From Phycisphaerales bacterium (GTDB taxonomy: Bacteria; Planctomycetota; Phycisphaerae; Phycisphaerales; UBA1924), in contig WFPK01000027.1 of the NCBI GenBank assembly GCA_015487555.1, positions 1-33,476 of the forward strand: DNA of 33,476 bases, in the 5' to 3' direction. The position numbers and the translations under genes were made by a program. This document shows, one piece after another, positions 21,123 through 29,317 of the stretch. Position 1 is the first letter of the stretch. The number at the start of each line of letters is the position of its first letter. The notes beneath the pieces were generated by a model. The model had not been told where the DNA came from. It worked only from the letters and a program-made list of their open reading frames with translations, and searched no databases.

Positions 21123-22540
21123 GCAGCCTGAGCTACGAGGATATCCGCATCGCGATGGATGCTCGGTGGGTGATCGAGCCCAAACTCGAAGTGTTCGATT
21201 TCGTAGGCGTCGCCATCGACACCCGCGCGATCGAGCCCGGGCAGCTCTTCTTCGCCTTCGTCGGCGAGCAGGTCGATGGGCATGATTACCTCGAGCACGC
21301 AGCCAAGGCGGGCGCGGGGATGTGCGTCATCACCGATGCGACCAAGGTGCCCGATGGGTTCGAGGTGCCCGTGCTGATTGTCGATGATGCGCTCGAGGCG
21401 ATCACGAAACTCGCTTGGACCTGGCGACAACGATTCAGGGCCAATCAAACCAAGGTCATCGCCATCACCGGCTCCAACGGCAAGACCACCACCTGCCGAC
21501 TCATTCACTCCGTGTGCGCACAAAGCGGGTTATCGTTTGTGTCGCCCAAGAGCTTCAACAACGCGCTGGGCGTGCCGATCACGATCCTCAATACGCCTCA
21601 GGATGCCGACTATCTGGTCGCTGAGCTCGGCACCAGTTCGCCCGGCGAGATCGCCGCCCGATCGGGGCTGATCGAACCCGACATCGCGGTGATTACTTCG
21701 ATCGGCTCTGCTCATCTTGAAGAGCTCGGCGATCGCGGCGGGGTGGCGCATGAGAAATCCCAGATCATCAAGGCTTTGCCCGATGGCGCCCACGCGATCA
21801 TCGTCGGGGGCATCGCCGAGCTCGAATCGGCGATCGAATCGGAAGCGGACCGTGTGCAGATCACCCGCATCGGGACAGAGGTGCCTATCGAGATTCTCGA
21901 AGCGACCGATCGGCACACGAGTTTCACCTTTGCGGGCGAGCCGTTCACGGTGCCGATGCTCGGGGAGCACAATGCGTCGAACGCTTCGCTGGCGGTTGCG
22001 GTGGGGCGAGTGCTGGGGATTGGCGACGATGCGATTCGAGCTCGATTGATGGCGGTCAGTCTCCCCGAGATGCGCTTCGATCGCATTGAAATCCCCACCA
22101 AGACCAAGTCGATCGTACTCTATAACGATGCCTACAACGCGAACCCGGATTCGATGCGGGCGGGCTTGAGGACCTTTGACCGATTGAATATCGAGGGAGA
22201 GAAAATCGCGATTCTGGGCGACATGCTCGAGCTGGGCGTGCACAATGCTGATGAGCACCAGGCATTGGTCGCAGCGTTGATGAAGTATCCTTCGATCGAC
22301 CGATTCATTTTGGTCGGCCCATCGTTTGCTGATGCTGCGAGTCCGAGCGATCGGATCACCGCCTACGCATCGTTCGATGCCCAGGTGATGACGCAGATCG
22401 CCCGTTTGGTTCTTCCGGGCTCGCATGTGCTGCTCAAGGGTTCGCGTGGGATGGCCCTTGAGCGGATCGTGTATATCCTCATCAGCAGCCGAGCTGCCAG
22501 ATCGGCTTCAACTCGAACCAAGGCATGGTTTCAGGCATGA
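21119..22540 (+). CDS. murF: UDP-MurNAc-tripeptide:D-Ala-D-Ala ligase
   Basis: MurF adds D-Ala-D-Ala to UDP-MurNAc-tripeptide, completing the cytoplasmic pentapeptide. The 473-residue protein shows VAIDTRAIEPGQLFFAFVGE, the ATP loop GSNGKTTT (residues 118-125), NNALGVPITIL, AELGTSSPGEIA, GSAHLEELG, the NDAYNANPDSM signature and LGDMLELG near the C-terminus. It starts in an ATGA overlap with murE and ends in one with mraY, so the three genes are translationally coupled. The last 15 residues (SASTRTKAWFQA) are a small family-atypical tail. Confidence 0.96.
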   Translation: MSSLSYEDIRIAMDARWVIEPKLEVFDFVGVAIDTRAIEPGQLFFAFVGEQVDGHDYLEHAAKAGAGMCVITDATKVPDGFEVPVLIVDDALEAITKLAWTWRQRFRANQTKVIAITGSNGKTTTCRLIHSVCAQSGLSFVSPKSFNNALGVPITILNTPQDADYLVAELGTSSPGEIAARSGLIEPDIAVITSIGSAHLEELGDRGGVAHEKSQIIKALPDGAHAIIVGGIAELESAIESEADRVQITRIGTEVPIEILEATDRHTSFTFAGEPFTVPMLGEHNASNASLAVAVGRVLGIGDDAIRARLMAVSLPEMRFDRIEIPTKTKSIVLYNDAYNANPDSMRAGLRTFDRLNIEGEKIAILGDMLELGVHNADEHQALVAALMKYPSIDRFILVGPSFADAASPSDRITAYASFDAQVMTQIARLVLPGSHVLLKGSRGMALERIVYILISSRAARSASTRTKAWFQA

Positions 22541-23724
22541 TTTATATTTTCTTTGAAATGCTGCAATCATGGACTGGTCTTGAGGTGTTCTACAAGCTCT
22601 TTTCGATCTTCGATCAGGTCCAGTTCCGGGCGCTGCTGGCTTCGGGGTTATCGTTTGCGATTGTGGTATTGATGGGCAAACGGGTGATCCGGTTTCTGAT
22701 CTCGATGAAGATCGGCGACGGCGGGGAGACCGACGCTGAGCTTTTACGCGAACATGCAGCAACCAAAGCCAATGTGCCCACCATGGGCGGGGTGTTGATC
22801 GTTGGTGCGATTTTTATCTCGACTATTTTGCTCGCAGACATCCGCATCAACCGGGTCTATCTGGGGCTTTTTACGCTCATCTGGCTTGCGTGTGTTGGTG
22901 GGGCGGACGATTGGCTCAAACTCACCGCTGCACGAAGAGGCACCGGACGCCAGGGGCTTTATTCATGGGAGAAACTGGTTTTTCAGCTCGGTATCGGGAT
23001 GATTGTCGGCTTTTTCGGATATCGGTATGGCGTGCTTGCTGATGGGGTTGATTCGATGGCCCATGTGCTCAACTTGCCCTTCCAGCGCACCTATGACCCG
23101 GGCACCAAGTTCGCTGCCGATGGATTGATTTACCTGAGTATGCCGATTTATATCTTCATCGCGACAATGATGGTCGCAGGGTTGTCCAATGCGGTCAACA
23201 TCACCGATGGGATGGACGGGCTTGCGTCGGGCACTTCGTTGATTATCACCTTTGGGCTTATCTTGCTGGCGCTGATCGCGGGCGATCAGGGGGCTGCCCA
23301 GTATCTCTATGTCCCCTTTGTCCCCTTCACCGACGAGCTGGCAGTGATGGCCGGGGCGATGGGCGGGGCGTGCCTTGGGTTTTTGTGGTGGAACTGTAAG
23401 CCGGCGCAGGTTTTCATGGGTGATACCGGGTCACTGGCTTTGGGGGGGTTGATCGGGTACATCGCGGTGATGATTCGCCAGGAGATTGTCGTGCTCGTGA
23501 TGTGCGGCGTATTCCTTCTCGAAATCGGCTCGGTTGTGCTTCAGGTCGGATGGTTCAAATATACCCGGATCAAAACTGGCACCGGCAGGCGCATCTTCCG
23601 GATCGCGCCCTATCACCATCATCTCCATCAAGGGGGATGGGCGGAGAATCAGGTGGTCAATCGGCTTTGGATTGTTGGGATTCTGCTCACGGTGATCGCG
23701 CTGGCATCGCTCAAGATCCGGTAG
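22537..23724 (+). CDS. mraY: phospho-MurNAc-pentapeptide transferase
   Basis: MraY moves phospho-MurNAc-pentapeptide from UDP to undecaprenyl phosphate, making lipid I at the inner membrane. The 395-residue polytopic protein carries the active-site Asp pair in GGADDWLK (124-125), NITDGMDGLA (Asp224, Asp227), FMGDTGSLALGG (Asp296) and the HHH motif in APYHHHLHQGGW (360-362). The ATG at 22537 gives an ATGA overlap with murF like that between murE and murF; a Met at 22525 is in frame. The usual next genes murD, ftsW and murG are absent: the following gene is convergent, so the division and wall cluster is broken here. Confidence 0.96.
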   Translation: MIYIFFEMLQSWTGLEVFYKLFSIFDQVQFRALLASGLSFAIVVLMGKRVIRFLISMKIGDGGETDAELLREHAATKANVPTMGGVLIVGAIFISTILLADIRINRVYLGLFTLIWLACVGGADDWLKLTAARRGTGRQGLYSWEKLVFQLGIGMIVGFFGYRYGVLADGVDSMAHVLNLPFQRTYDPGTKFAADGLIYLSMPIYIFIATMMVAGLSNAVNITDGMDGLASGTSLIITFGLILLALIAGDQGAAQYLYVPFVPFTDELAVMAGAMGGACLGFLWWNCKPAQVFMGDTGSLALGGLIGYIAVMIRQEIVVLVMCGVFLLEIGSVVLQVGWFKYTRIKTGTGRRIFRIAPYHHHLHQGGWAENQVVNRLWIVGILLTVIALASLKIR

Positions 23725-23743: not shown

Positions 23744-26227
23744 CTAGGGCAGCATTACTTTGACGAGTGCTCGCTTGATTGCGCGATAGGTCTCGCCATC
23801 GGTTGGCTCGCCGGTGTTGGTATCGAGCCTTGCCTGGGCGAGTTTTTCCACATGCTTCCAGTATCCAAGGAGCATCGCCCATGCCCAGAAGATCGACCGA
23901 TCCGGATCGTACAGGTTTGTCGGCTCGCTGGTCATTCCGTTGAGCTCGACAATTCCGAATCCTTGGCCACGGGCGAGGGCATCGAGCGATTCGCACCGAA
24001 GGTCAAACCGTCCGATGTCGAATCCACGCCCGCGATCATCCTCGAACCGATCAACGATTGCTTCGATCCGAGCGCTGAGCTCGGGGGTAATCAGGTCCGC
24101 CCCATCGGTAAACTTGGCACCTTGAGCATGGTTTCCCGCGACCCCGAGAGGGATTCGTTGCCCTTGCTCGGGGATGGTGCCGAGTTGATCGCGCAGCCGA
24201 TCGAAGAACATGCGGCTTTGTGCCCGGTAACGCTTGTGCCCGAGAATCAGTTGGCGGATCGCTCGGCGTCCATCACCAATGACCACAGGAAAATGCTTGA
24301 TCGTGATCGCATAGATGAACCCCGACGGGCCCTGGTAGGCAGGGTTGAGAATTGATTCAGTATGGCGAACCCAGAGCACCCCGACCTCCACTTCGCCATC
24401 ATGGCGTTTTTGGATCACAAAGGGCTCGTCGTTCTCCTGGCAGTAGGCGATCAAGTCGGCTTGGGATGAAATCATCTCGACGCCCCGTCCGCATTCGCCC
24501 TGGTCGGGTTTGCAGAATACCGGGAAGCTGCCGAGCATTGCATCATTCTGGACCGCATCAATGGCCGACTCGATCCGCTGTTGCGCATCATCGTTCGATT
24601 CGATAAGCACACAATGCAGCACTGCGGTGTCCTTGGCGCGTCCATCGCCGAGTTTGCGATTGATGTCAATTTTCGATTCGCCCTGCACCCCGCCGTCGCA
24701 GGCGTATCCTGGGTTGGCAGCGGTGATGGCGCGGAGTCCTTTTCCGGAGATGACGCGTTTGAATCCCCACCAGAGGACTGGCAGGTAGACGATTCCTGTG
24801 ACCCAGTATTCGTGGTTGGTGAAACGATTCCACTGTCCTTTGAGCCGTTGGCGTCCTTCCCAAGTAACGATCAGGCGCATCGCAGCCAATATGGACAGGA
24901 GCATTGCAAAGCCGGTCAGGAACCCGATCATGCCCATCCGTTCGGTGAGCGCAAGAGTTGGGTTGCTGGCGATCAATCCAACGATGAATACCGCCAGGAC
25001 ATATGCCAGGCCTCGCACCCATCCCAAGGGGGAGAACGGGCGATCGATCCGGTGGGCCCCGCGCATCAGCCACCATCCCCGCCCGAGCAGCATCCCGAGG
25101 ATCGCGACGCCAAAGTCAACCTCGTGCATCGAAACAAACACCATCGTCAGCGCAAGCCCTCCAATCGTGCCATAGCGCACCATCACGATGATCCCGATGA
25201 GTTGTGCCCACCAGGGGACTGCTCGTATCCATTGGCCAAGTTGATGGAGCAGCGCATCGAATCCGGAGCGGTCTTTGCGCGGGGCGAGGTTGAGATGGTC
25301 TGTCTCGGGCGCGATGCCGGGCACATCATGGCGGGCGAAGAATGCATTGAGATACCCGGCGGTCTCGTCGGCCTGCAGAAACGGTAAAAAGTGCGAAGCG
25401 TCGAGCATGATGAGCTTGGAGGTGGGCATCATCTCATGATGCTGCTCGGCTGCCCAGTCTGCGACGAGAAAATCGTGGCGACCTTGCAAGATCAGCGTCG
25501 GCGTGGTGATTGTCGGCATGATCTTGGTGAGTTCACGCTGATCCGAATCCCAGAACGCTTTGATCCACCCTGTCCGATCCTTGAAGCTGTCGAGGTATCC
25601 AAAGTGGGGGATCAACTCGGGGATCACGCCGAGGGCGATATACCCCGCGCCATACTTCACATGCTCGAAGAAGTACGACCCAGATCCTTCAGTCTCCTGC
25701 GCTCCGATCCCCGCCAGAAGTGTGATTGTTGCGACTCGATCGGGAAACTGATCCGCCATTTCGATGGCTACGCCGCCGCTTGAAGACCAACCAACCACAT
25801 GCACCCGCTCGATGCCAAGTTTGTCAAGCATCTCCATTGCGTACCGGGCCTGCGCTTTGTACGACAGGTCGGGCGCCCATGCGCTTCGGCCATACCCAGG
25901 CAGGTCGGGCGCGATCACCCGCCGATTCTGTTGTGCGATCAGGGGGGCGAGTTTGTCAAACGCCCGGGCATTGCCCGGCGATCCGTGCAATAACAGGGCT
26001 GCTGTCTGCTCGGGCGACTCGTTTTGGGGCAGCCATTGGTCATAAAAGACCCGAACGCCTGAGCCCTGAGCATCGAGTGTTACAAAATCGACTTTGGAAG
26101 CAAGGGCCCCATCCACACCCGACTCGATCGCATACTGGTACACATGCGAAGCGATCAACAGCACCGCATAGAGCACGATGCCTGCGAACCAGGTCGCTTG
26201 TCGGTTTGTGCGTTGCTTACTGGGCAT
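23744..26227 (-). CDS. alpha/beta hydrolase - membrane - ATP-grasp fusion protein
   Basis: An 827-residue protein joining three parts. Residues 14-30 form a membrane anchor. Residues 70-300 are an alpha/beta hydrolase: LLLHGSPGNARAF (oxyanion loop), APDLPGYGRS, nucleophile elbow GWSSSGG (Ser148), acid in GRHDFLV (Asp252) and DASHFLPF (His279). Residues about 340-490 contain some five hydrophobic helices. Residues 500-800 are an ATP-grasp domain: AANPGYACDGGVQGESK, ATP lysine in FCKPDQGECGRGV (Lys573), and metal ligands in FDLRCES (Asp742) and ELNGMTSEPTN (Glu761, Asn763). ATP-grasp enzymes usually form amide-type bonds through acyl phosphates. Substrate and pathway are unknown. The start overlaps the end of rlmN by 11 bases; the end is 19 bases from mraY. 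Confidence 0.85.
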   Translation of the reverse strand: MPSKQRTNRQATWFAGIVLYAVLLIASHVYQYAIESGVDGALASKVDFVTLDAQGSGVRVFYDQWLPQNESPEQTAALLLHGSPGNARAFDKLAPLIAQQNRRVIAPDLPGYGRSAWAPDLSYKAQARYAMEMLDKLGIERVHVVGWSSSGGVAIEMADQFPDRVATITLLAGIGAQETEGSGSYFFEHVKYGAGYIALGVIPELIPHFGYLDSFKDRTGWIKAFWDSDQRELTKIMPTITTPTLILQGRHDFLVADWAAEQHHEMMPTSKLIMLDASHFLPFLQADETAGYLNAFFARHDVPGIAPETDHLNLAPRKDRSGFDALLHQLGQWIRAVPWWAQLIGIIVMVRYGTIGGLALTMVFVSMHEVDFGVAILGMLLGRGWWLMRGAHRIDRPFSPLGWVRGLAYVLAVFIVGLIASNPTLALTERMGMIGFLTGFAMLLSILAAMRLIVTWEGRQRLKGQWNRFTNHEYWVTGIVYLPVLWWGFKRVISGKGLRAITAANPGYACDGGVQGESKIDINRKLGDGRAKDTAVLHCVLIESNDDAQQRIESAIDAVQNDAMLGSFPVFCKPDQGECGRGVEMISSQADLIAYCQENDEPFVIQKRHDGEVEVGVLWVRHTESILNPAYQGPSGFIYAITIKHFPVVIGDGRRAIRQLILGHKRYRAQSRMFFDRLRDQLGTIPEQGQRIPLGVAGNHAQGAKFTDGADLITPELSARIEAIVDRFEDDRGRGFDIGRFDLRCESLDALARGQGFGIVELNGMTSEPTNLYDPDRSIFWAWAMLLGYWKHVEKLAQARLDTNTGEPTDGETYRAIKRALVKVMLP

Positions 26228-27389
26228 TGGCCTCCTGATCGGTTCGGCCTTGTGTCGTCAATGAGATCAGCTTGCGTTTGCGAATCTCTGCGGTGCCGAG
26301 CTGCCCGCACGCCGCCATTGAATCGCGTCCTTTTGTCCGTCGGCAGTTCACGAACACCCCGTGTCGCATCAGCCGATTCACAAACCGATCGATAAGTTCA
26401 TCGCTTGGCGCATCCCAAGGCGAGTCTCTTCGAGGATTGTATGGGATGACATTCAACAACCCGCCGTGCCCTTTGCCTTTTTTCCGCGTTGGATCTTTGA
26501 GGAAAGGGCTCATCCACTCGGCGAGTTCGTCGGCGTGGGTGTCTTCGCTATTGACACCCGGGATGAGCACATATTCGATCATGATTTTGCGCCAGCCTCG
26601 GACCTGGCGCAGTTCAAGGAGCATGGTTTGGAGCGCTTGCATATTCCATTTTTTGTTGATCGGCATGAGCCTTGATCGCACCTCGTCGTTTGATGCGTTG
26701 AGCGACAAGGCGAGCCCGAGCCGTTTCCATCCGGGTTTTTGGACCTGTTCTTTGATCCGTTCGAGCCCGTCGACGCGTCCGACGGTGGAGATGGTGATGC
26801 CGCTCATGGGCAGGGCTGGGCCGTTGCGATCGGTCAGGCAGGCGATGGCTTTGAGGACTTGATCGAGATTGTCCATCGGCTCGCCCATGCCCATGAACAC
26901 GATGTTGTCGATCTTGATGTTTTCGATGAACCGGGCTGCCCACCATTGAGCGACGATCTCGGCTGCGCTGAGCGAGCGGATCAATCCCATCTGGGCCGTC
27001 TCGCAGAAGGTGCATCCCAAGGCACACCCAACTTGCGACGAAACGCAGAGCGTGTGGGTTTTGCGTCCTGATCTGCCGATCATCGGGATGATGACCGATT
27101 CGATATCATCGAAGTCGATTCCGCGGTTGGCGAGCCGATGGTCGGGGTTGGGCAGGCGCTGGACAAACTTGATCGTGGTGCCTTCATTGACTGCTTCTTC
27201 GTGTCTTGTGACAATCGTGGGCAGTGTGATTTTGGCGGGCGGGGATGCAGTTTTTCCATCACGGTAGATCGCCTGGTACGCCGTTTTCGCCCGTCCTGGC
27301 CCGACGCCTTCGCGGGCACACAAAGCCTGGTAGGCATCGAGCGTGAGCCCCATCGGGGAGATCGGGTTGATTTGGTCAGCGATGGCCAT
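26217..27389 (-). CDS. rlmN: 23S rRNA/tRNA adenine C2-methyltransferase
   Basis: RlmN is a radical-SAM enzyme that methylates C2 of A2503 in 23S rRNA and A37 in some tRNAs. The 390-residue protein has THTLCVSSQVGCALGCTFCETAQ with the cluster cysteines 122, 126 and 129, VFMGMGEPMDN, SLNASNDEVRSRLMPINKKW, and the C-terminal MAACGQLGT with the methyl-carrying Cys361. All match RlmN; the resistance relative Cfr shares most of these motifs, so specificity is not absolute. The frame is open upstream to 27494, but those codons are palindromic element, so the ATG at 27389 is chosen; ATG at 27353 is possible. Its end overlaps the fusion gene by 11 bases, which suggests coupled translation. Confidence 0.92.
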   Translation of the reverse strand: MAIADQINPISPMGLTLDAYQALCAREGVGPGRAKTAYQAIYRDGKTASPPAKITLPTIVTRHEEAVNEGTTIKFVQRLPNPDHRLANRGIDFDDIESVIIPMIGRSGRKTHTLCVSSQVGCALGCTFCETAQMGLIRSLSAAEIVAQWWAARFIENIKIDNIVFMGMGEPMDNLDQVLKAIACLTDRNGPALPMSGITISTVGRVDGLERIKEQVQKPGWKRLGLALSLNASNDEVRSRLMPINKKWNMQALQTMLLELRQVRGWRKIMIEYVLIPGVNSEDTHADELAEWMSPFLKDPTRKKGKGHGGLLNVIPYNPRRDSPWDAPSDELIDRFVNRLMRHGVFVNCRRTKGRDSMAACGQLGTAEIRKRKLISLTTQGRTDQEANAQ

Positions 27390-27423
27390 GCCAAGAGGAT
27401 AGACATTGGGACAAGTCCCAACA

Positions 27424-27507
27424 ACGAGTCGCGACCGTGAGGGAGCGGTCTTTCTTGCTTTGGATTTCTGGCGATTCGAAGACCGCTCCCTCACGGTCGC
27501 GACTCGT
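27424..27507. repeat. double palindromic element between SPFH gene and rlmN (type C)
   Basis: A perfect 29-base inverted repeat, 27424-27452 and 27479-27507, around a 26-base spacer. The outer ends are ACGAGTCGCGACCG and its complement; the inner ends are CGGTCTT and AAGACCG. Each arm can fold alone (GACCG, loop TGAGGGAG, CGGTC). It lies 5 bases past the SPFH gene stop and 35 bases before the rlmN start, on the same strand. Confidence 0.93.
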
Positions 27508-27512
27508 CGAGA

Positions 27513-29129
27513 CTACTTCTCATCCTCTGCATCCTTGACCATCTGATCGAGCATGGTGCCGATGAGCGCGACGGTCTCGCTGTTGGATGTGCCATCGCTT
27601 GAACCCGTCACCATCACGCGAGGCGTGATCTCAATCCCATTTTCACCAATCACACGCAAGACCTCGATCATTGCAGCGTTGGCTCTGCCGATCTGATCTG
27701 CGATCATTTTGTATGCGTTGGCTTGGGCGGTGGCTTCGATCTCGATTGCTTCGGCCTGGGCCTTGGCTTCGATGATCCGTTTTTCCTTGTCCTGTTCTGC
27801 GATTTTCACTTCGTACGATGCTGTCGCGAGTCGTTTTTCTTCTTCCGCTTCCTGTGTGGTTTTGGAGAGTTCTTTCTGTTGCATCGCTGCTTTTTGTTGC
27901 TCTTGGAAGGTGATCTGTTCCTGCACCGCGATCTCACGATCCCGCTGGGTGTTGAGGAGTTTGCCGAGGGTTTCTTCGTCACCGACATCACCGATGCGCA
28001 CGCCGGTGATCGTCACGCCCATCCGCGACATCTCATGAGCGATCATTTCGAGGGACTTGGATTCCTGCGTCGAGCGTTGGTTCACATAATCGAGCGCCTT
28101 GACGCCCTCGGCGTTGTTGCGGAAGATCGCCCGTACGGTCGAGTTCAACTTGGCCAACAACGGCTCAATCTCTGAGCCGAGCTTGGCGACCACGATCGGT
28201 GCATTGTGAGGCTCAATCTTATACTCCACGCGCACATCGACCGGGAAGGTGAACCCGTCGCTGGTGCGGACGGTGATTTCGCGTTGCTCGTTGGCAGCTG
28301 CAGCGTTGCGAGCGGAGATGCCTTGCTCGACATATCCCTTTTCGCCTGCGGTGAACCGGATGATGGTTTCGCGTGTCGAGATGATCGACACTGAATATGC
28401 TTTGGTATTGACCGGGTACTTCCCGGGCTGCAACGGCTGGGCCTGAATCCCCTTTTCGCCGGCATCGGCAAGGATCACCGGCTCGTCGGTCTGCCCAACC
28501 TTGACTGATAGCGTGGGCTCGGTCCCGAAGTTGCTCTTGAGCACGGCGACCGCAGCTGGGGGGACTTCGGTTGTGTCGACCATCGTCACTGTGAACAACT
28601 CAGGATTCAGCCGATACTTTCCGGGGGTCAGGACATTGGATTGAGGGCCCTTGCGTCCCTTGCCTGTTGTCAGGAAGAACTTGGGGTCTTCGATCATCTT
28701 CTTGAACTCCGCGTTGGTGACCTCGGGGGCAAAGACCTGCCCGGGATCCAGCGGCAATCCATCGCGTGATTCGACCAATCCAACCTTGTCCGCCGGGATA
28801 TCAACCAGAGGCCTCGTCTCCACATCATAAATCACAGGCCAATACCACAAATGCCAACCCGGTGCCAACACATCGGCCTGCGGGCCCGTCTGTCCATCGG
28901 TTGCCAGAATCATCCCCGGAGGCATCGAAGGGCCCAGCGCGTTCTTCTTCACGATCCCCACCTGAGTCGCCCCGACATACCGGATTGATGAGAGGGCTGT
29001 AGCGACAAAGAGCACCGCGACTCCCAATGAAATCAGCAAAATCCGCAGCGACTTCTGAGGCACACGAAATGCACTCATCACACACATCCCCGCAATAATA
29101 ATTCCTAACAACAGTGCAGCATTCGACAT
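27513..29129 (-). CDS. SPFH/band-7 membrane protein with N-terminal beta repeats
   Basis: A 538-residue protein. Two membrane helices (ALLLGIIIAGMCVMSAF at about 5-21 and ILLISLGVAVLFVATAL at about 30-46) precede three related segments, at about 82-121, 161-199 and 227-254, each with Q-x-x-V/P-L-x-PG-W/K-H/Y and a following strand ending near Val-Glu or Thr-Glu. An SPFH (stomatin/HflK-type) domain follows at about 255-400 (REITVRTSDGFTFPVDVRVEY, MSRMGVTITGVRIGD), then a long Glu/Gln/Lys/Ala coiled coil to about 490 and a short tail. SPFH proteins form membrane-bound rings that organise lipids or proteases. AAGGAGGA at 29133-29140 fixes the ATG at 29129. No NfeD or HflC partner is adjacent. 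Confidence 0.87.
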   Translation of the reverse strand: MSNAALLLGIIIAGMCVMSAFRVPQKSLRILLISLGVAVLFVATALSSIRYVGATQVGIVKKNALGPSMPPGMILATDGQTGPQADVLAPGWHLWYWPVIYDVETRPLVDIPADKVGLVESRDGLPLDPGQVFAPEVTNAEFKKMIEDPKFFLTTGKGRKGPQSNVLTPGKYRLNPELFTVTMVDTTEVPPAAVAVLKSNFGTEPTLSVKVGQTDEPVILADAGEKGIQAQPLQPGKYPVNTKAYSVSIISTRETIIRFTAGEKGYVEQGISARNAAAANEQREITVRTSDGFTFPVDVRVEYKIEPHNAPIVVAKLGSEIEPLLAKLNSTVRAIFRNNAEGVKALDYVNQRSTQESKSLEMIAHEMSRMGVTITGVRIGDVGDEETLGKLLNTQRDREIAVQEQITFQEQQKAAMQQKELSKTTQEAEEEKRLATASYEVKIAEQDKEKRIIEAKAQAEAIEIEATAQANAYKMIADQIGRANAAMIEVLRVIGENGIEITPRVMVTGSSDGTSNSETVALIGTMLDQMVKDAEDEK

Positions 29130-29172
29130 CCGTCCTCCTTCAACGAGACCATGCGCCCCATAAGACGCCTTT

Positions 29173-29178
29173 ATTATA
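29173..29178 (-). promoter_or_regulatory. possible -10 box for the SPFH gene
   Basis: A perfect TATAAT reads on the minus strand 44 bases before the SPFH start, in the 188-base gap shared with divergent asnS. The best -35 candidate (TTGTGC) would need a 19-base spacer, so this is tentative. No promoter for asnS was identified in the rest of the gap. Confidence 0.4.
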
Positions 29179-29317
29179 GGACGCGCACGCCCGAGGCGCA
29201 CAAATCCACTCAAGCGAGCTAACATCATCACCCGCGACCCACTTCTTGGGATGCACGCACGATTTCTTTCACCAGACGACCCACCAGCCTCCCCACCAGA
29301 CCAACCGAGACCCACCC

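Follow-up and report, generated by a model that had tools for sequence, protein, structure and literature searches.

A conserved fusion of alpha/beta hydrolase, membrane region and ATP-grasp ligase in Phycisphaerales, with relatives in ornithine-lipid operons

In Agrobacterium, the MprF-type lysyl-PG synthase and flippase LpiA and the periplasmic hydrolase AcvB/VirJ are encoded by genes of one operon, and, in the account given of them, an aminoacyl lipid is made inside the cell, moved, and cleaved outside, which makes this sequence of events a real design (PMC13135905). An ATP-dependent amide-forming enzyme and an enzyme of alpha/beta-hydrolase fold likewise act on aminolipids in Singulisphaera (OlsH-OlsI; PMC12493201), while the C7orf58-type proteins of animals carry an esterase and an amino-acid ligase in one chain and are predicted to modify cell-surface polymers (PMC2824669). 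The window analysed here (the whole stretch of DNA, 33,476 nucleotides from a Phycisphaerales bacterium) encodes a protein in which an alpha/beta hydrolase, a membrane region and an ATP-grasp ligase are joined (Table 1), and which, in the scheme proposed below, would resemble LpiA-AcvB in combining synthesis inside, transfer, and hydrolysis at the outer face by an alpha/beta hydrolase that is anchored or exported. It differs from LpiA-AcvB by possessing an ATP-grasp ligase instead of a tRNA-dependent transferase and a VTT domain instead of the MprF flippase, by its single chain and by its link to an aminolipid pathway; neither the VirJ nor the MprF model of Pfam matches the window protein (E 0.01). 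OlsH, on the other hand, is an adenylate-forming enzyme of the GH3 type without relation to ATP-grasp, and the OlsH-OlsI pair is presented without a membrane transport domain in PMC12493201 (the words ATP-grasp, DedA, flip and transport are absent from its main text), whereas the C7orf58-type PC-esterase/ATP-grasp proteins are described in PMC2824669 as animal proteins with a GDSL/SGNH-like esterase, a TTL-type ligase and no VTT domain. Within the open-licence literature searched, we found no paper on the fusion family, nor one linking ATP-grasp with VTT, ornithine lipid with DedA, or TANGO2 with ATP-grasp; the parts are of known kinds, and their combination and pathway link appear to be undescribed there.

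The open frame in which an earlier note on this DNA (made from its letters alone) had recognised a joined hydrolase, membrane part and ligase is present as one entire ORF in 18 of the 20 other genomes of the window's genus (one genome of the genus, G012, has a fragment only, and another, G001, has two copies), and fusions of 870-1,140 aa are found more widely, from the same family and order to remote members of the phylum. The ligase itself was detected in 34 of 294 phylum genomes (E 1e-10). The fusion is conserved, and an artefact (i.e. a sequencing frameshift or chimera joining two genes) is ruled out by its recurrence across genus, family and order. The same note had described one membrane-anchored chain with two intact active sites, and this picture is borne out by a Ser-Asp-His triad present in order in 53 of 54 fusions (single residues in 53 to 54; identical fusion sequences and loci L047-L129 are left out of this count) and by eight ligase residues kept in all 147 sequences, near-copies included. 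Conservation at these positions rules out a degenerate enzyme domain in homologues as far as hydrolase and ligase are concerned, and degeneration is accepted for the VTT part. In a 56% complete genome of the same genus (G008, locus L022) the ligase is a 393-aa ORF, with no hydrolase within 1.5 kb upstream.

Table 1. Features of the fusion gene and its immediate neighbours, numbered along the window
Feature	Position	Strand	Support
Whole fusion gene, 827 aa (P0001)	23744..26227	-	orthologues found
AGGAGG ribosome-binding site of the fusion gene, within the rlmN 3' end	26231..26236	-	read from sequence
N-terminal transmembrane anchor, aa 11-29, Lys/Arg ahead of the segment	26141..26197	-	hydropathy; family-wide charge bias
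Alpha/beta hydrolase domain, about aa 70-300	25328..26020	-	Pfam PF00561, PF12697; AlphaFold model poor there
Ser148, nucleophile	25784..25786	-	kept in 53/54 fusions
Asp252 of hydrolase	25472..25474	-	kept in 54/54 fusions
His279 of hydrolase	25391..25393	-	kept in 54/54 fusions
Membrane region, aa 330-468, shortened putative VTT/DedA remnant	24824..25240	-	hhalign profile chain
ATP-grasp ligase domain, about aa 474-805	23813..24808	-	
Lys573, predicted ATP-binding	24509..24511	-	147/147 sequences
Asp742, Glu761, Asn763, predicted metal/ATP ligands	23939..24004	-	each 147/147 sequences
rlmN, upstream, 11-base overlap with the fusion	26217..27494	-	TIGR00048
mraY, convergent, incidental neighbour	22525..23724	+	TIGR00445, above cut-off

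By its fold and its Lys, acidic and Asn ligands the ligase belongs to the ATP-grasp enzymes, and the nearest solved folds are those of amino-acid amide ligases (cyanophycin synthetase, ArgX/LysX and RimK). The relation is a distant one, with 19% identity to cyanophycin synthetase/RimK-type ligases and a score of 24.1 bits for the window protein against NF010623 (cut-off 877); cyanophycin synthetase moreover carries a Mur-ligase-like part that the window protein does not have. It is established that amide formation by ATP-grasp ligases of this group proceeds via acyl phosphates (PMC8762209). The name D-Ala-D-Ala ligase, under which Salinivibrio relatives are filed, is not supported, as no Ddl model stands among the best 25 of the 40 NCBIfam families matched by the window protein; 22 relatives together match 11 Pfam families, none of which is a Ddl model either. 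A search for separate homologues of each half and their gene neighbours, which the earlier note had advised, retrieved separate genes in Paracoccus (ligase, hydrolase and VTT adjacent in 5 of 6 loci) and in Vibrionaceae (VTT and ligase adjacent), with ornithine-lipid genes nearby in many relatives, while VTT and ligase form a single gene in Azospirillum and others. Scanning of named genomes yielded 451 relatives, of which the best 80 were kept (79 distinct); within these best 79, a VTT::ligase fusion occurs in 23 loci and a VTT domain is present in the locus in 42. The threefold hydrolase-VTT-ligase fusion is the form found in the window's phylum.

The segment ahead of the ligase is matched by PF09335 (VTT/DedA) in relatives (L045, L039, L042 and L025; 55.1 bits in L045, cut-off 33.9), and this Pfam model has no match in the window protein. 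The VTT motifs Glu-Asp, Gly-Asp and Arg-x-x-Pro-Gly, of which E17, D50, R98 and P101 are invariant in 18 VTT rows, are not found in the alignment of the window's genus, where about 60-80 VTT residues are missing (the Arg-x-x-Pro-Gly stretch included). Direct comparison of the genus with VTT by hhalign is weak (73.8% over 46 columns); since a profile chain nevertheless runs from the genus to intermediates (97.6%) and from these to VTT (95.4%), a decayed VTT domain is the best reading of the membrane region of the window protein. None of 20 genus rows (0 of 19 genus loci) carries the VTT label, which is present in 15 fusions from family and order and wanting in 6 family fusions outside the genus. 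The tree requires three label changes, one of them at L037 (whose ligase is an ORF of its own), and does not single out a history in which the VTT signature was lost once or twice. Two other VTT genes (C53) are present in the window's own genome, but as most relatives have them too, they carry no weight for compensation by a VTT protein encoded elsewhere.

Of 54 fusions, 52 have a hydrophobic segment ahead of the hydrolase, and since 50 of these 52 carry more positive charge on the N-terminal side of this segment than on its C-terminal side, the hydrolase is predicted to face outside; the ligase, because it needs ATP, should face the cytoplasm. The separate Paracoccus hydrolases, in which no N-terminal membrane segment was found by hydropathy, do not fit an outside position. 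To the question of whether both active sites face the same side, the predicted answer is that they lie on opposite ones, and editing in one shared pocket is thereby disfavoured, with making inside, moving and acting outside being more likely. Structure prediction of the full chain by AlphaFold was successful in part, as the ligase was modelled well and the hydrolase remained at pLDDT <50 because only 4 of 42 alignment rows cover it; the model is thus silent on the hydrolase fold and on inter-domain contacts. Membership of this domain in the alpha/beta hydrolase superfamily is given by the ordered triad, together with a score of 75.1 bits for the window protein against a member of the Pfam clan (cut-off 25.8).

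Three unrelated sets of ornithine-lipid genes (OlsB-OlsA, OlsF and OlsI-OlsH) contain or flank the fusion, or its separate parts, in relatives. The operon examples were labelled with custom profiles built from our own seeds and a selection was checked against NCBIfam, where no Ols match reaches the equivalog cut-off, so that an amino acid other than ornithine is allowed for. The fusion stands in a row with OlsB and OlsA, in the order OlsB-OlsA-fusion, in six loci (L208, L211, L200, L207, L209 and L213), a row that a DinB gene interrupts in L204; the gaps are of -4 to 11 bases in L208 and L211 (distant phylum members), and the NCBIfam matches in the three loci checked have E values of 4e-39 to 7e-41 (OlsB) and 4e-37 to 8e-42 (OlsA). 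Of the 23 phylum genomes that bear the ligase and belong to other orders than the window's, 21 were used to assess linkage (G164 and G190 were excluded as weak, 43 bits, E 4.1e-11). PF13444 (OlsB/OlsF) was found in 19 of these 21, in 16 of them no more than 5 kb from the ligase and in G340, G316 and G235 on another contig; it is absent from G095 (GH3 only) and G290 (neither). By chance, such 5-kb linkage would be expected in well under 1% of genomes (one 10-kb target per about 4.3 Mb). Inside the order, OlsF (E 1e-117 to 2e-122 by NCBIfam in the three loci checked) is within 5 kb of the ligase in 8 of the 12 genomes having both, the others carrying it on another contig (G040, G060) or at a distance of 46 kb (G045) or 10 kb (G057). 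The order OlsI-OlsH-DinB-NRDE-fusion was observed in L149, L034, L030 and L193, and OlsI-OlsH stand near the fusion without DinB/NRDE labels in L028, L032 and L046 (L214 is without the OlsI label); of the 21 genomes that belong to the same family but not to the genus and have both GH3 (OlsH) and the ligase, 7 carry the two within 5 kb of each other, as does G038 of the order.

Similar arrangements extend to other phyla. In Ca. Hydrogenedentota (L116), DinB, NRDE, VTT::ligase, OlsB, OlsA and an anchored hydrolase form a single run, and in Vibrio chagasii (L128) VTT, ligase, DinB, NRDE, a DoxX-like gene and OlsF are all on the same strand. As for Vibrio cholerae, its second OlsF (VCA0646) is reported to close a putative four-gene operon (PMC12186959). 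The pair of DinB-family and NRDE/TANGO2-family genes recurs beside the fusion in the window's phylum (e.g. L149 4855-6232), in Vibrionaceae and in L116. Among 61 related genomes, GH3 or PF13444 is present in 47 of 48 ligase-bearing ones (the exception being G020, of the genus) and in 8 of 13 ligase-free ones (G012, with its fragment, was scored ligase-free), a co-occurrence whose Fisher p of 0.001 is optimistic, the genomes being related; since 8 of the 13 have an aminolipid gene, the ligase is dispensable for the basic lipid. Other neighbours were seen as well: a DUF1989 gene directly ahead of the ATP-grasp gene (L109, L127, L079, L080, L087, L088 and L093), where a guanidine-type small molecule may feed the ligase; a YqcI/YcgG gene ahead of this pair in L109 and its cluster; and a PF14518 iron-containing redox enzyme with a class I methyltransferase adjoining the ATP-grasp gene in L048 (3025-4879), L047, Komagataeibacter and Gluconacetobacter.

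The fusion stands outside an ornithine-lipid operon in the window and its genus, and inside it in many relatives. It adjoins rlmN in all 19 same-genus loci; rlmN is also near the fusion in four family loci (L027, L029, L035 and L036), and a band-7 gene is found ahead of rlmN (window 26217-29315) in 9 of 19 genus loci. None of the 19 genus genomes with both GH3 and the ligase has the two within 5 kb of each other. The window's own genome holds an OlsI-OlsH-like pair on another contig than the fusion (C33, L180), in which the OlsH-like gene (NF052613, E 1e-101) is beside an alpha/beta hydrolase; DinB and NRDE were not found at that place, and PF05742 has no match across this genome. Directly ahead of the pair are genes for an ABC transporter ATPase and an FtsX/MacB-type permease (L180 9601-11937), and same-sized genes precede it in L181 and L182.

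The best explanation of these observations is an aminolipid head-group ligase joined to a transbilayer module and a periplasmic hydrolase, with a presumed substrate, and we consider the chances about even that the protein is a member of an aminolipid (ornithine-lipid type) pathway acting after lipid synthesis. Such a role is less certain for the window's own gene, since in its genus the gene has left the operon. In the scheme we propose, the cytoplasmic ATP-grasp domain would convert a carboxylate into an acyl phosphate and link the head of an N-acyl amino-acid lipid, through an amide bond, to a second amino acid or an amine; because the first amide is already the work of OlsB, OlsF or OlsH, the ligase domain is likelier to make a further one in the head group. 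Two-residue lipid heads are chemically known (PMC10191378, PMC12493201). The VTT/DedA domain, in the relatives that retain it, may then assist passage of the product through the inner membrane (the VTT-derived region of the window's genus has lost its signature and is probably an anchor), and the anchored serine hydrolase at the outer face would dismantle or remodel the product. Both the VTT/DedA descent of the membrane region and the presence of relatives in ornithine-lipid operons had been missed by the earlier note.

Gene order in the window would in itself suggest an enzyme of cell-wall editing that partners MraY and the Mur ligases, given that mraY and two Mur ligase genes adjoin the fusion there. 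This order is shared by just 1 of 19 same-genus loci, against 19 of 19 for rlmN, and among the genes that recur beside the fusion elsewhere no wall gene is prominent; to the extent that gene order can decide, we reject the cell-wall reading and regard it as highly improbable, the mraY adjacency being incidental, as had been suspected. Thus, of the earlier interpretation, the two intact sites, the anchor and a lipid-linked amide as the likely target (now backed by the operon context of relatives) have stood, and the wall-linked target is not supported. A change of role in the window's genus, where the protein would have left the aminolipid pathway, deserves more weight, although we deem it unlikely: the fusion is out of the operon and beside rlmN throughout the genus, and its membrane domain has lost the VTT signature, yet the catalytic residues of both enzymes are invariant in the genus and OlsI-OlsH is kept.

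The hydrolase domain could, alternatively, be an OlsI-like O-acyltransferase that adds or swaps a second acyl chain and hydrolyses nothing, since the Singulisphaera OlsI is described as an O-acyltransferase with an alpha/beta-hydrolase fold (PMC12493201). We hold this to be rather improbable, as a separate OlsI-like gene accompanies the fusion in all seven loci with a labelled OlsI-OlsH pair listed above, OlsF or OlsA performs the acyl-transfer step elsewhere, and the predicted outer-face position would be one without acyl-CoA and acyl-ACP. Furthermore, the OlsI model NF052614 is neither among the best 25 of the 40 NCBIfam families of the window protein nor among the 24 NCBIfam rows of the L149 fusion, and the OlsI label that our custom profile put on fusions reflects shared superfamily only. 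Even the OlsI-like gene of the window's genome obtains 61 bits against NF052614 (equivalog cut-off 385), and a recent copy of OlsI is not supported as the origin of the domain, another alpha/beta hydrolase of this genome (C25) being nearer to the window protein (1e-5) than the OlsI-like gene is (7.6e-4). It is also conceivable, though unlikely, that the operons reflect joint regulation, in an envelope-stress programme common with aminolipids, of an enzyme that handles another lipid or a soluble amino-acid conjugate. Neighbours do vary, with DUF1989 and YqcI/YcgG, or the redox enzyme and methyltransferase, in some Proteobacteria without OlsB/OlsF in view, and OlsB or OlsF is within the fetched DNA (some contigs being short) in 19 of the best 79 of 451 relatives, with neither seen at the Azospirillum and Komagataeibacter loci within the scan DNA; the linkage to three non-homologous aminolipid routes and the 4-base gene overlaps argue against such joint regulation and for the aminolipid pathway.

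An extended form of the aminolipid reading, which we advance tentatively and hold to be possible though short of probable, is that one polypeptide would run a full aminolipid cycle, in which the ligase builds an undescribed or orphan two-residue head, the VTT domain carries it and the hydrolase resets it; this would be an MprF/AcvB-like arrangement assembled from unrelated parts and spread across several phyla, with a decayed-transporter version in the window's genus. If so, the head could be of taurine-ornithine or another dipeptide type. The new element here is gene context, by which the family is linked to three unrelated aminolipid routes, and the fusion family is a concrete candidate for how such aminolipids cross the inner membrane.
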